This document shows positions 20,472-42,370 of a stretch of DNA of 64,000 bases, one piece after another. This DNA comes from Hyphomonas johnsonii MHS-2. GTDB taxonomy: Bacteria > Pseudomonadota > Alphaproteobacteria > Caulobacterales > Hyphomonadaceae. The position numbers and the translations under genes were made by a program. Under the pieces are notes generated by a model. It was given only the letters and a program-made list of their open reading frames with translations. It searched no databases and had not been told where the DNA came from. Location: assembly GCF_000685275.1 (NCBI RefSeq), contig NZ_ARYK01000006.1, positions 1-64,000 on the forward strand, given 5' to 3'. Position 1 is the first letter of the stretch. Every line of letters begins with the position of its first letter.

Positions 20472-20500
20472 TTGACACGAATGCGTTACATATGTAACGA
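20472..20500 (+). promoter_or_regulatory. blaI promoter with BlaI-type operator
   Basis: A consensus -35 (TTGACA, 20472-20477) is followed by a perfect 14-base palindrome, GTTACATATGTAAC (20485-20498), covering the spacer and the weak -10 position (TAACGA, 20495-20500). The core TACA-N2-TGTA is the half-site pair recognised by BlaI/MecI/CopY-type winged-helix repressors, so the gene 30 bases downstream is expected to repress its own operon. Confidence 0.8.
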
Positions 20501-20530: not shown

Positions 20531-20917
20531 ATGTCCCAGCCTAACCCGTCCGAACTCGCTGTCCTGAAACACCTCTGGTCGAGTGGCCCGCAGAGTGCGC
20601 GTGAGGTGCACGACGCTGTCGGTCCGGGGCAGGCCTGGAAGGCCTCGACCACACGCACGATCATCAATCGCCTTGAAGACAAGGGTTGGGTTGTTCGCCG
20701 CGATGTCCATGGCCTTGCCGTCTACGACGCGGCGCTTGACCGGACCCGGACGCTGGGCGGCCTGGTGCGCCACTTCGCGCGGCAGGTGCTCGACATGAGC
20801 GGCCCGCTGCCGGCTGCCCTGTTCGCGGAGAGTCCGCACCTGTCGGACGCCGAACTCGATGACCTCGATGCCATCATCAACGCGGCCGAGACACAGGATT
20901 CGGAGGGCGAGGCATGA
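20531..20917 (+). CDS. blaI: BlaI/MecI/CopY-family repressor
   Basis: A 128-residue winged-helix repressor. The DNA-binding part (residues 5-75) has the family pattern LAVLKHLWSSGPQSAREVHDAV, then STTRTIINRLEDKGWV; a dimerisation helix region follows. In characterised systems the cognate M56 membrane protease triggers cleavage or release of BlaI from DNA when a cell-wall signal is sensed. The gene lies behind a palindromic operator and overlaps the M56 gene by four bases (ATGA). It is the regulator half of a two-gene switch, with no beta-lactamase gene nearby. Confidence 0.93.
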   Translation: MSQPNPSELAVLKHLWSSGPQSAREVHDAVGPGQAWKASTTRTIINRLEDKGWVVRRDVHGLAVYDAALDRTRTLGGLVRHFARQVLDMSGPLPAALFAESPHLSDAELDDLDAIINAAETQDSEGEA

Positions 20918-22779
20918 GCATCCCGGTTCTCGTTCTCGTCTCCCTCACATGGAGCGCGCTGCTGTGGACTGCGGCCAGCCTGCTCTGTCGCCTCCGGCCA
21001 TTGCCGCACCAGGCACAGGCCATCTGGCGGGTCGCGGCCGGTATGACAGTGCTGCCATTCCTGGCCGCACTCGTCCTGCCGGGCCTGCCTGCGCGCCAGG
21101 TGGCCGATCTTCCGGACCTGCCAATGATGGAAGCCTTCGTGGTCAATTCGGGCGCTGCCACCGCTGCTTCGCCGCCAGCCGGCCTGCTGGCTGAGATGCC
21201 CTCGCTGGCGACGCTCGTTCTTGGCATGCTGCTGCTGGGGTGGGGCCTGCGGTTCGCCGCCTGGCTCCTGGGTGAAGTCCGCCTGCAGCACCTGAAGCGG
21301 GCCTCCACGGCGTCCGGCCTGAGTGCGATGCGCTGGGCCCGTTCCCTCGGCCTGAAGCATGTCCCTGAAATTCGCCTGATCCCGGCCGGTTCACCCTTCG
21401 TCGCGGGTCTTGCCCGCCCGGTCATCTACCTTCCCCAGGGCATCAGGTCCTCGGCCGACGTGGACCAGGTGATTGCGCATGAGTGCGTGCACCTGAAGCG
21501 CGGCGACCTGGTCACCAGGCCCGTCGAGCGTCTCGTCTCCGATGTCTTCTGGTTTTCGCCTTTCGCCTGGGGCATGCGCGGCGCGCTCGACTATTGGCGG
21601 GAGGCCGTCGTCGATGCCGGGGCCAGCCGCCTCACCGGCGACCGTATCGCCTATGCCCGCGCCCTCACCCTTGTCGCTCGCCTGTCCCGTCCCGTGGTCG
21701 CCCTTCCGGTGGCCGCCTTCATCCTGCCTCGCAAAGGAAGCCTCAAAATGCGCCTGACCCACCTGCTGCACGACACGCCCCGCCAGCCGAAACGCCTTGC
21801 TGCCGCCGCTGCGCTGGCGCTTGTCCTCGCCGTGCCTGTCGCGCTGGCACAGGGCATGTTGATGAAGGATGCGCCCATCGCGCAGACCGCGCATTATTCT
21901 CACGCGGTCCTCGACAAGGCCAAGCTGACCAGCCGGTTCGGCACGCGCGTCCACCCGATCACGAAACAGCCCCGCATGCACAACGGGATCGATCTGGCTG
22001 AAGAAGAGGGCAAACCGATCTATGCCCCCGCGGATGGCGAGGTCCTGTTCGCCGACATGAAGGATGATTATGGCAACCTCGTTGAATTGCGCGTGGCCGC
22101 CGACACACGCCTGCGCTTCGGCCAGATGTCCGTGATCGATGTCAGCGACGGGCAGCAGGTCAAGGCCGGCGACGTAATCGGCCGGATCGGCCAGTCGGGC
22201 ACGGCAACCGGCCCGCACCTGCATTTCGAAGTCTGGCACGGTGACCGTCCGGAAGACCCGGAAGCAGAGCCGGGCCTGGTGCTCGCTGACGTGCTGAAGG
22301 AAATGGCACCGCGCTCGACCGGGCCTGCCCCAGCCGCACCTGCACCTCAAGTCCAACCCGCAGCGGCACCTGCCAATGCGCCGACGGCGATGCCTGATGC
22401 CTGCGCCGCTCTGGACACATGGTTCCGAGATACACCGACACCTGACAGCTGGGCCGCGCGCCTGGACGAGGCAAGGATCGCGAATGCCACGCTCGGGCTC
22501 GAAATTTCGCCCAAGGCCTTCAATCCTGAGACGACCGCTTATCCGAAACCCATCTATCCTCGTGCGGCTGCCGCTTCGAAAAAATCGGGTTTCTGCCAGG
22601 TGCTTTTTGATATTGGCCCTGACGGGCATCCGGTGAACGCTGAAGCCAATTGTTCCGACCCGGTCTTCGTTGAATCCGCAAGGGCCATGCCGGATGCGGA
22701 ATTCGTCCCCGCGGAAGTCGATGGCAAGGCGGTCACACTCAGCGGTGTGATCTATCCCCTGCAGTATTGCATCGAGTAG
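20914..22779 (+). CDS. M56 (BlaR1-like) protease fused to M23 peptidase and TonB C-terminal domain
   Basis: A 621-residue membrane protein in three parts. The N-terminal M56 region has membrane helices near residues 2-24, 38-58 and 97-120, the zinc motif HECVH (189-193) on the cytosolic side, and a further helix at about 294-312. The periplasmic part is an M23/LytM endopeptidase with both zinc motifs intact (H356-x3-D360 and H435-L-H437). A Pro/Ala linker (about 465-490) leads to a C-terminal domain resembling TonB C-terminal domains (about 545-621; note PIYPRAA and the pair of strands around GFCQVLFDIGPDG). BlaR1 proteins carry a penicillin-binding sensor there; this one carries a peptidoglycan-binding enzyme instead. 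It is coupled to blaI. Confidence 0.9.
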   Translation: MSIPVLVLVSLTWSALLWTAASLLCRLRPLPHQAQAIWRVAAGMTVLPFLAALVLPGLPARQVADLPDLPMMEAFVVNSGAATAASPPAGLLAEMPSLATLVLGMLLLGWGLRFAAWLLGEVRLQHLKRASTASGLSAMRWARSLGLKHVPEIRLIPAGSPFVAGLARPVIYLPQGIRSSADVDQVIAHECVHLKRGDLVTRPVERLVSDVFWFSPFAWGMRGALDYWREAVVDAGASRLTGDRIAYARALTLVARLSRPVVALPVAAFILPRKGSLKMRLTHLLHDTPRQPKRLAAAAALALVLAVPVALAQGMLMKDAPIAQTAHYSHAVLDKAKLTSRFGTRVHPITKQPRMHNGIDLAEEEGKPIYAPADGEVLFADMKDDYGNLVELRVAADTRLRFGQMSVIDVSDGQQVKAGDVIGRIGQSGTATGPHLHFEVWHGDRPEDPEAEPGLVLADVLKEMAPRSTGPAPAAPAPQVQPAAAPANAPTAMPDACAALDTWFRDTPTPDSWAARLDEARIANATLGLEISPKAFNPETTAYPKPIYPRAAAASKKSGFCQVLFDIGPDGHPVNAEANCSDPVFVESARAMPDAEFVPAEVDGKAVTLSGVIYPLQYCIE

Positions 22780-37354: not shown

Positions 37355-38217
37355 CAGCTGCGCGCGGCCTCCGCAATCTTGCGGGCGCCGGTCGATGGCG
37401 ACAGGTAGACACGGCCCTTGTTGCGCAGGTCGATCATTTTCAGCGGGCGCTGCATCAGCGCTGTGCGCGTCTGCAAGGTGGCAAGGCGGGTCAGGGATGT
37501 TTCGAGCGCGTCATCCTCGGGAAGGCGCACGGTCGCGCCGCTGATCAGCCTGATGTCCCAGCGCCGGTCGGCGACACGGGTGGCAACGGCCATCCGCGAC
37601 GCGACATCGGGTGTGTTTGCGAGCGCCTTGACCAGCGCGGGGGCCGCTTTTGGCGCACCGGTGCCGGCGAGGCGGACGAGGGTCTTGTGATCATCGGCGC
37701 GGGCGTCCGGCAGGATCCGGCCGAGGCCGTCAACCACGGTCCATTCCTTGCCGTCATGCCAGAGCGCCACCGGCTCTGCGGCGTCTGCAATGATCACGAT
37801 CTGGCCGGGCCAGAGGCGGTGGACACGCACGTTCAGCACTTTACGGGTCGCTTCGACGCGGCGGCGGATCAGCTTGGGGTCGGCGCGGAACATGTTCTCG
37901 CCGGGCTCGATCATGGCGGCGGCACGAACGTCTTCGGCCAGCGCCGGGTTCTGCTCGAGGCCGAGCACGGAGACGTCATTGACGGAGACACCTGCCATGC
38001 GGGCCGTGTCGTCCATGAAGCCGCCGAAACGGGTTTCGATCTGCGACAGCGATCCGCCCATCCAGGCAGCCGTGGCGACAACGATGGCGATCAGCATGAC
38101 CAGTCCGAACAGCACGGACGAGACACGGATTTCCTCGCCCGTCGCCTCGTCGACGATGGTGGCGGGGCGGCGGCGCGAACGCGAGGGGACAGACTTGTTC
38201 CGGCTTACCTTTGGCAT
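37354..38217 (-). CDS. ftsQ: Cell division protein FtsQ
   Basis: A 287-residue bitopic protein: a basic cytosolic tail (residues 1-30), one membrane helix (about 34-54), a POTRA domain (about 76-145, with [20 protein letters not shown]) and a beta domain. It recruits FtsB/FtsL and regulates septal synthesis. Its start overlaps the end of ddl by 13 bases. Confidence 0.94.
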
Positions 38218-39113
38218 GAGGCATCCTCGATCATCCAGGCGACAAGCGCTTCGAAGGACATGCCAACGAAAGCGGCCTGTTCGGGGACAAGCGAGGTGGG
38301 CGTCATGCCGGGCTGGGTATTTGTTTCCAGGATCACGAGGCGGTCTCTCTTGTCGTCATAGCGAAAATCGGATCGCGTCGCGCCCCGGCATCCGAGCGCC
38401 TGATGTGCCCTGAGAGCTGCGTCCATCGCGGCTTCAGTCACATGCGCAGGCAGGTCTGCCGGGATCACATGCTGCGATCCACCGGCCTGATATTTGGCAT
38501 CAAAATCGTAATAGTCCCTTAAGGTCGTGATCTCCGTGACAGCGAGTGCACGATCACCGAGCACACCCACCGTCAGCTCGCGCCCCGGGATGAACTCCTC
38601 CGCCATGAGATTGTCGCCATAGTGCCAGCTGGGCCCCAGCAATTCTTGCGGCGGGCTGTTGGCGCCTTCGCGCACGATCAGCACGCCGAAGCTTGACCCC
38701 TCCGCGACGGGTTTGACCACATAGGGCGGCTTGAGCGGGTGGCTCGCGGCCGCTTCGGCGCGGGTGACACGCCTGTCGGCAGCGATCGGCAGGCCCGCGT
38801 CGCGATAGACGGCCTTCGACTTCAGCTTGTCCATGGCCAGCGCCGACGCCAGAACGCCGGAATGGGAATAGGGCAGGCCCATGACTTCGAGCAGGCCCTG
38901 CACGCAGCCATCCTCTCCCCACGGGCCATGCAGCCCGTTCAGAACGGTATCGGGTGCAGCCTCGGTGAGTTGCAGGGACAGATCGCGGCCAGCATCGATT
39001 TCGACCACGTCGTAACCGGCAGCAACAGCAGCCCTGGCCATCTGCTTGCCGGAGGACAGCGAGACCTCGCGTTCGGACGACCAGCCTCCGTAAATCACCG
39101 CTACGCGTTTCAT
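38205..39113 (-). CDS. ddl: D-alanine--D-alanine ligase
   Basis: A 302-residue ATP-grasp ligase making the D-Ala-D-Ala dipeptide for peptidoglycan. The N-terminus [16 protein letters not shown], the HGPWGEDG block, the glycine-rich ATP loop [11 protein letters not shown] and the metal-binding ETNTQPGMT are visible. AAAGGGA six bases before ATG 39113 fixes the start. In the usual gene order murB would stand immediately upstream; here 239 bases and a TonB-receptor gene on the other strand intervene. Confidence 0.96.
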
Positions 39114-39244
39114 GGCCGGTCCCTTTCCACTTTGGGCGCGATACGTGCCCGTCTCTAATGGCCTTTGTCTTAACAAAGCGGCGTGAGTCAGGCGAAACCG
39201 GATCTTGTACGTGTTCAAGTTACGAAAAAGTCACTGAAGCATTA

Positions 39245-39273
39245 TTGCCAATTAGTGACTACATGTGTAGTCG
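39245..39273 (+). promoter_or_regulatory. Promoter-like site with BlaI-type operator
   Basis: A -35-like TTGCCA (39245-39250) is followed by the inverted repeat GACTACA-TG-TGTAGTC (39257-39272), whose core TACA-N2-TGTA matches the blaI operator. The repeat centre lies 14 bases beyond the hexamer, exactly as in the blaI promoter. The -10 position (TAGTCG) is weak. It lies 81 bases upstream of the receptor gene. Confidence 0.55.
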
Positions 39274-39352
39274 TTTTGTATCGAAAGACGATGAAAGTGA
39301 CGGTTACCTCCGTTGTTTTCCCAAAAAGAAAATTGCATGAGGAAGCGCCCGC

Positions 39353-41410: not shown

Positions 41411-41439
41411 CGCCTGTCACGCGGGCGGGTGAAGGCGTC
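41409..41439. terminator. Bidirectional hairpin between receptor and murB
   Basis: GACGCCT (41409-41415) pairs with AGGCGTC (41433-41439), with an inner CAC/GTG pair. It spans the end of the receptor gene and the end of murB. There is no U-run, so it may act as an mRNA-end structure for both convergent genes. Confidence 0.45.
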
Positions 41440-42370
41440 CGATCCGGCGCACTTCCCACCGCAGTTGAATGCCGCTGTGATCGAACACACGTGCACGGAC
41501 GAGTTCGCCGAGAGCTTCAAGGTCTGCAGCCGTTGCGTCGCCCGTATTGATCAGGAAGTTGCAGTGTTTTTCCGAAACCTGTGCGCCACCCACACGCAAG
41601 CCGCGGCAGCCGGCCGCGTCGATGACCTTCCAGGCCGACCGCTGGTTCGGCGTTCCGGGCGGATCAGGATTGGCAAAGGTCGACCCGGACGTCTTGTCGC
41701 GTATCGGCTGGGTCTCTGCGCGGCGGGCCTGCAGGGTTTCGATATCCTTCAGGATGGCACCCGGATCGTCGGTGCCGTCGCCAGACAGGACAAGGCGCGT
41801 GACGATGAAGTCTTCCGGCAAGTCGGAATGACGGTAGGCCATCTGTACCGCTGGCAGGCCCTGGTCGCCCGAATCACCCTGATAGACAACGCGTTTGCCT
41901 GTGCGTGTAATGCCTTCAAGCGAGGTGAGGACATCCTTCAGTTCGCGGCCATAACACCCGGCATTGGTTCGCGTGGCCCCGCCGATCGAGCCGGGAATGC
42001 CCGACAGGAATTCGAGGCCCCGCGTGCCATTGGCCGCAGCGGCCTTGGCGACCGAGAGGTCGAGTGCGCCGGCACCAGCCGTCAGTGTCGTCGCATCAAC
42101 CGCGGTGATCTCACCCCAGTGCTTGCCCATCAGGCGGATGACGACGCCTTCGATGCCACCATCGCGGACGATCAGGTTGGAACCGACGCCCAGCACGGTG
42201 ACGGGAATGGCCGGGTCCAGCGCCTGCAGGAACGCTGACAGGTCGTCCGTGTCGGCCGGCAGGAACAGCCAGTCGGCGGCGCCGCCCACGCGGAACCACG
42301 TATAGGGCGCCAGCACGGCATCTTTCAAAAGCTTGCCACGGACGGGCGGAAGGGGAGGCGAGACAGTCAC
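41417..42370 (-). CDS. murB: UDP-N-acetylenolpyruvoylglucosamine reductase
   Basis: A 317-residue FAD enzyme that reduces UDP-GlcNAc-enolpyruvate to UDP-MurNAc. FAD-binding signatures are [13 protein letters not shown] (residues 24-36), [14 protein letters not shown] and the [18 protein letters not shown] block. The catalytic serine is in SGSTFANP, and the acidic residue near the end is in [11 protein letters not shown]. The start is GTG 42370. murC, its usual neighbour, is not adjacent; upstream lies a repeat protein. Confidence 0.95.

Follow-up and report, generated by a model that had tools for sequence, protein, structure and literature searches.

A conserved, putative BlaI-class operator before a TonB-dependent receptor gene of Hyphomonas, likely served by a paralogous repressor encoded on another contig

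Results

Features of the locus

The window, meaning the whole 64-kb stretch of DNA that was analysed, contains a gene for a TonB-dependent receptor, flanked by ddl and murB, and a separate blaI-1/M56-1 gene pair (Table 1). The receptor product scores above the cut-offs of the Plug (34.8 against 23.9 bits) and TonB_dep_Rec_b-barrel (33.3 against 27 bits) families, its AlphaFold model has a mean pLDDT of 85.3, and the Foldseek matches to this model are TonB-dependent transporters. A search against PDB sequences at an E-value of 0.001 returned no match. Assigning a substrate from the fold was abandoned, as the model resembles many TonB transporters about equally. A polysaccharide deacetylase gene occurs within a few kilobases of a receptor homologue at three loci elsewhere (L190, L191 and L193, of G060, G048 and G056); such neighbours give only a hint of an amino-sugar cargo.

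Table 1. Coordinates of the features discussed (window positions unless a contig is named).
Feature	Position	Strand	Remarks
TonB-dependent receptor, 685 aa	39353-41410	+	Target gene; Pfam, AlphaFold, Foldseek
ddl, D-Ala-D-Ala ligase	38205-39113	-	Divergent neighbour; adjoins receptor in 30/30 loci, own included
murB	41417-42370	-	Converging neighbour; seen in 26/30 loci, own included, the loci reaching 1500 bases beyond the match or stopping at a contig end
TTAC-N7-TCA upstream element, GTTACGAAAAAGTCAC	39219-39234	+	Common to receptor and blaI-2 promoters
-35-like hexamer TTGCCA	39245-39250	+	Read directly; operator centre 14.5 bases 3'
Putative class-2 BlaI-type operator GACTAC-N4-GTAGTC, GACTACATGTGTAGTC	39257-39272	.	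Upstream of receptor gene
Class-1 operator of blaI-1, CGTTACATATGTAACG	20484-20499	.	Other class than receptor site
blaI-1, Penicillinase_R repressor	20531-20917	+	PF03965, 72 bits
M56-1, M56 metalloprotease of BlaR1 type with fused M23 and TonB_C domains	20914-22779	+	Pfam
blaI-2	C3:262729-263088 (another contig)		Penicillinase_R; M56-2 gene next

The receptor site reads GACTACA-TG-TGTAGTC, its dyad centre lying 14.5 bases past TTGCCA, and in the blaI-1 promoter GTTACATATGTAAC (20485-20498) is centred 14.5 bases past TTGACA (20472-20477). The sequences, coordinates and identical phasing that the first-pass annotation had given for both palindromes are thus borne out by direct reading of the window, as is, from gene coordinates and Pfam matches, its placing of the receptor between murB and ddl. 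Sites of the form TACANNTGTA occur in the window at these two places only (0.06 expected) and number seven in the whole 3.6-Mb genome, both window sites included. No good -10 element was seen for TTGCCA as a -35, and the placement of the promoter is accordingly not firm. Among the receptor loci of the genus, TTG stands just 5' of the site in 21 of 30 rows (L013-L033), while in nine (L034-L042) the site overlaps TTGACT.

Two further elements were noticed in these intergenic regions. Directly downstream of the operator, ATCGAAAGACGAT (39280-39292) forms the palindrome ATCG-N5-CGAT, which recurs in the close relatives L014, L015, L016 and L033. Upstream of the class-2 site in L041 (G022) lies GAATGATAATCATT, which we take to be Fur-box-like and which hints at an iron link in that relative.

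Conservation of the site within the genus

The receptor is present in 34 of 37 same-genus genomes, own included. Conservation in relatives, the check proposed when the site was first described, proved complete at one mismatch or fewer: in all 30 loci read (again with our own) the gap between ddl and the receptor holds GACTAC-N4-GTAGTC, 25 times perfectly and five times with one mismatch. In an ungapped alignment anchored on the site, pairwise identity over these loci is 97% at the 12 arm positions and 36% in the flanks. Dinucleotide shuffling of the 30 gaps (200 rounds, accepting at most one mismatch to GACYAC-N4-GTRGTC) gave a mean of 0.005 loci with a site and a maximum of one. The site is also carried by G020, G021 and G029, bringing the tally to 33 of the 34 receptor-bearing same-genus genomes at one mismatch or fewer; none was found at the degenerate receptor copies of G011 or at the second of two tandem receptors in G013. 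Taken together, these alignments mark the palindrome as a genuine, strongly conserved repressor site and a putative operator of the BlaI class.

TACA-N2-TGTA, originally put forward as the defining core, had to be given up in that capacity. The four central bases vary across the 30 receptor loci, where the core bases may read, for example, ACGC, AACA or GCGT, and the conserved part consists of the arms GACTAC and GTAGTC.

Two paralogous repressors and their sites

Five Penicillinase_R matches were found in the genome, four of them over the cut-off; BlaI-2, rather than the window's gene, gives the best match, and L011 and L012, the lowest in score, look like regulators of other kinds. BlaI-2 scores 119.2 bits against a cut-off of 22.6 and aligns with MecI over residues 2-116 of 120 (1okr, E 3e-18). 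Its neighbour M56-2 matches the M56 family with 154.7 bits, and its HExxH residues H237, E238 and H241 are invariant in 11 of 11 aligned sequences; a search of PDB sequences at an E-value of 0.001 gave no match. The C-terminal tail of M56-2 is long and, in a model of middling confidence (pLDDT 67.4, pTM 0.41), largely helical. Neither M56-2 nor M56-1 has a Pfam match to a penicillin-binding sensor domain, and by this measure neither carries the beta-lactam sensor of BlaR1. The M23 domain of M56-1 displays HNGID and HLH motifs. Among the M56-1 orthologues scanned, M56 together with M23 was found in nine of nine, and TonB_C in one of nine, under its cut-off.

Perfect copies of GACTACN4GTAGTC number exactly three in the genome, at the receptor, at the blaI-2 promoter and before a gene for a secreted-looking protein. 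The sole one-mismatch copy is the second at blaI-2, 25 bases from the first. Tandem arrangement is general in the genus: BlaI-2 was detected in 35 of 37 genomes, and all 30 blaI-2 promoters read have two tandem sites. The 37 genomes together hold 42 perfect motifs, against 17 for a reversed-pattern control, and when these were matched by hand to the receptor, blaI-2 and secreted-protein loci, 27 fell at the receptor, 13 at blaI-2, two at the secreted-looking protein and none elsewhere. In five other genomes of the order, nine perfect motifs among the matches listed divide into three at the receptor, four at blaI-2, one at a secreted-looking protein (G056) and one unassigned (G055). A perfect class-2 motif away from both receptor and blaI-2 lies at G055:C1:480258 (L088 position 1501), and with the relaxed motif GACYACN4GTRGTC one extra site appears in G032 (C5:215394), again at neither gene.

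The third motif of our genome, at C1:795049, precedes the gene of a 193-aa secreted-looking protein (about C1:795081-795659; L059 7082-7663), which is 42% identical over 79 residues to the tail of an M56 protein from a relative. The secreted-looking protein was found near full length in one other genome of 61 (G014), which has the motif there too. Small secreted-looking proteins behind class-2 sites (L059, L165, L159) resemble M56 C-terminal tails, and may be free copies of the sensor domain.

BlaI-1 is detected in 20 of the 37 same-genus genomes. The blaI-1 promoters have one site each, of another class and mostly CGCTACANNTGTAGYG; a search for CRYTACANNTGTARYG in 23 same-genus genomes, 13 of them with BlaI-1, returned a single site in each of 12, always at blaI-1. 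The arms differ accordingly, CGTTAC at blaI-1 against GACTAC at the receptor, and the receptor site of our genome agrees with BlaI-1's at six of 12 positions and with BlaI-2's at 12 of 12. The receptor and both repressors occur together in 19 Hyphomonas genomes; 18 of them were scored, G013 being left out, and in all 18 the half-sites at the receptor are nearer those of BlaI-2 than those of BlaI-1. The comparison of sites by position weight matrix is partly circular, because the BlaI-2 sites were gathered with the pattern first seen at receptors, and the raw blaI-2 promoters are the better evidence. In 14 Hyphomonas genomes the receptor site persists with no BlaI-1 detected; 12 of these are at least 92% complete, and one of the 14 (G015) is a single contig. 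BlaI-2 is present in 12 of these 14 genomes. It was not found in G001 and G029 (84% and 92% complete), though both keep the receptor site.

The receptor and blaI-2 promoters have a second element, TTAC-N7-TCA, in common. Of 30 receptor gaps, 20 have it no more than 160 bases upstream of the site (17 at 37-39 bases, three at 141-149), and it occurs in 27 of 29 blaI-2 promoters (18 at 27 bases, nine at 38; L114 left out) and in none of 20 blaI-1 promoters. GTTACGAAAAAGTCAC can also be read as a possible GTYAC direct repeat with an 11-base period, which would suit an activator of the OmpR type.

The same receptor outside Hyphomonas

Relatives of the receptor in named genomes numbered 397. The best 80 were retained, a set that includes many of the Hyphomonas assemblies counted above, and 78 loci were scored after L228 and L229 had been dropped. 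Class-2 sites were recognised at 41 loci, class-1 sites at 12 and a third class at two; seven receptors lie beside an M56 gene or a blaI/M56 pair, 15 show nothing recognised and one locus offered too little sequence. The class-1 receptor loci belong to Henriciella, Hirschia and close kin, and the 12 Henriciella-labelled loci comprise eight with class-1 sites, three with class-2-like sites and one without a site. Both third-class loci, with ACGACANNTGTCG, are from Parasphingopyxis. In Robiginitomaculaceae the receptor adjoins its own blaI-M56 genes. The 15 loci without a recognised site are from Sphingomonadales (six), Hyphomonadaceae (three), Parvularculaceae (two) and others (four). No site was recognised at several homologues in other genera, namely the second and third copies of G048, the first copy of G051 and those on G055 C5 and G059 C1, or at the degenerate receptor of G085 (L228), nor at the receptor of G086, despite a BlaI-2 relative in that genome.

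A prediction fixed beforehand, that class-1 receptor sites accompany BlaI-1 and class-2 sites BlaI-2, held in six of six and seven of eight genomes, respectively, of a second set; G084, one of the eight class-2 genomes, is probably a repeat of G021. In the two sets combined, BlaI-1 is present in 12 of 12 class-1 genomes and BlaI-2 in 10 of 11 class-2 genomes outside Hyphomonas, a test of repressor presence that discriminates little in the 16 sister genomes with both proteins. G081, a 2.7-Mb assembly with a class-2 site, gave no Penicillinase_R match. The sharp cases are Hirschia, with BlaI-1 only and a class-1 receptor site, and five Sphingomonadales (G069, G070, G079, G080, G082), with a BlaI-2 relative only (46-50% identity) and a class-2 site. 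In class-1-receptor genomes BlaI-2, where present, keeps class-2 operators, and BlaI-1 has class-1-like ones. When sites were scored within genomes, the receptor site was nearer BlaI-1 in eight and BlaI-2 in five of 13 of the 16 sister genomes, the remaining three having no usable BlaI-1 site by our filter; the three class-2-like sites of Henriciella are slightly nearer BlaI-2 (8 against 9, 10 against 11 and 8 against 11).

The BlaI type that G055 and G059 have together with M56 and the receptor is also encoded in both Parasphingopyxis genomes, in addition to a BlaI-2 relative. In G055 and G059 blaI, M56 and receptor stand in one row (G059, L194 5353-10055; G055, L195 1772-6804), with the third operator class at blaI: ACGACANNTGTCGT is present at the blaI promoter in two copies in G059, and in one perfect and one imperfect copy in G055. 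In Parasphingopyxis, the gene of the third BlaI showed no clear third-class copy at its own promoter.

On the receptor tree the operator labels need 11 changes, against a mean of 34.4 when shuffled, and are therefore clustered yet repeatedly changed; within Henriciella, class 1 and class 2 form a nested mix.

Discussion

The operator of the first-pass annotation is genuine and was most likely attributed, by mistake, to the nearer of two paralogous repressors. Its idea of a multi-locus regulon marked by a BlaI-class site stands, and its choice of the window's BlaI-1 as the repressor is probably wrong for this genome. The sequences show that the site is present and conserved, that it is confined to these loci within the genus and that it matches BlaI-2, not BlaI-1; the receptor's repressor here is likely to be BlaI-2. 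With good confidence we favour an explanation in which the palindrome would serve as a BlaI-2 operator, relieved via M56-2, with control of the receptor having passed between paralogues. That last component, extending over three operator classes, is probable from the distribution of sites, and a pairing of BlaI-1 with the receptor seems to apply to most Henriciella and to Hirschia.

Under this explanation BlaI-2, as a dimer, would sit on the 16-base palindrome, inside or across the receptor promoter, and obstruct RNA polymerase. It would likewise occupy both of the tandem copies before blaI-2 and, in our genome, the copy before the gene of the secreted-looking protein, which resembles the periplasmic tail of M56-2 proteins. 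On sensing a periplasmic signal, M56-2 would cleave BlaI-2 through its cytoplasmic HExxH protease, and the receptor, blaI-2 and secreted-protein units would be released together. Binding, cleavage and derepression are modelled here on the BlaR1/BlaI paradigm, in which, according to the accessible part of one report, BlaR1 cleaves BlaI directly (PMC9834060).

Three other assignments of the site have to be weighed. Cross-talk, with BlaI-1 and BlaI-2 both binding at unequal strength and the receptor answering to two sensors, would be encouraged by the full TACANNTGTA core within the window site and by the partial cross-binding of operators that the accessible part of PMC7253601 describes for CopY-type repressors. 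The same part, however, presents the 10-base core as necessary but not sufficient for CopY, and the arms, the location of sites and the failure to detect BlaI-1 in 14 genomes with the receptor site count against a contribution from BlaI-1; we regard such convergence as unlikely.

The two-locus regulon first envisaged, in which BlaI-1 would bind its own operator and the receptor site, draws on the core and phasing common to both window sites, and on the receptor operators of Henriciella and Hirschia, which are of the BlaI-1 class in genomes that all encode BlaI-1 (12 of 12 tested). In the present genome, however, it is unlikely by operator class, by presence and absence and by site location: the arms match at half as many positions as BlaI-2's, a search of 23 same-genus genomes found class-1 sites at blaI-1 only, the receptor site persists in 14 Hyphomonas genomes with no BlaI-1 detected, and the core bases at the receptor drift from TACA/TGTA. 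We hold this possibility to be very improbable.

Genes of the BlaI/MecI/CopY kind typically have tandem dyads that overlap the gene's own promoter. This speaks against an unrelated regulator acting on both blaI-2 and the receptor through the site, as do the tracking of BlaI class by operator class in genomes holding one of the two repressors, and the resemblance of third-class sites to the operators of the blaI-M56-receptor rows in G055 and G059. Co-conservation alone does not name a protein, and the shared TTAC-N7-TCA suggests another factor at both promoters, but the chances of such a regulator owning the site appear slim indeed. Two operators are discussed for a CopY-type system in the accessible part of PMC7253601. 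Short palindromes can arise by chance, but a functionless chance palindrome is refuted by the conservation of the site across 30 loci, with its contrast of arms and flanks, and by the shuffles, leaving that reading a negligible probability.

With BlaI-2 as the preferred repressor, a broader reading can be offered tentatively, the balance tilting slightly against it. The receptor lineage may be a standing output of BlaI/M56 signalling in the Alphaproteobacteria, its operator rewritten as at least three paralogous systems took control in turn, and the periplasmic sensor parts of three systems may be quite different: respectively, an M23 peptidase fusion, an unassigned helical tail duplicated in a free secreted protein, and the type standing in a row with the receptor. 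If this were true, BlaI/M56 pairs here would sense the cargo of the receptor or the state of the adjacent wall, not beta-lactams. The cell-wall idea might draw one support from the M23 peptidoglycan peptidase domain in M56-1, the partner of BlaI-1, and a role in 'envelope stress' may be envisaged. A receptor fixed between two cell-wall genes would provide BlaI/M56 sensors with a concrete target, and the exchange of one operator class for another at a single promoter would amount to a natural experiment on target swapping by paralogous repressors. To our knowledge, BlaI/M56 pairs are common beyond drug-resistant Gram-positives, and their sensing and targets there are mostly unstudied; one study reportedly concerns BlaI sites in Clostridium thermocellum. 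Our search of the open-access literature, largely without full texts, found no paper on a BlaI-controlled TonB receptor, on the motif or on the receptor itself.

Comparison with known systems

The receptor has a plug and a barrel, by Pfam and by fold, as do PhuR, OprC, PfeA and FpvA, but differs from them, with 11-15% identity and a TM-score of about 0.5 among the 50 matches listed. For the cop box of CopY/CopR, the accessible part of PMC7253601 gives the 16-base consensus RNYKACANNTGTMRNY, with which the window site agrees. The CXC metal motif of CopY is absent here, however, because neither BlaI-1 nor BlaI-2 has a cysteine, and the CopY_TcrY model scores 43.2 bits on BlaI-1 against a cut-off of 121.95; a copper reading was discarded on these grounds. 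The closest parallels are with BlaR1/BlaI and MecR1/MecI of Staphylococcus aureus, with which the BlaI-2 system has in common a Penicillinase_R repressor, a co-encoded M56 protein and tandem dyads at its own promoter. It departs from them in the lack of a penicillin-sensor Pfam match in M56-2, in the operator arms GACTAC and in its proposed target, which would be a TonB-dependent receptor where theirs is a beta-lactamase or PBP2a.
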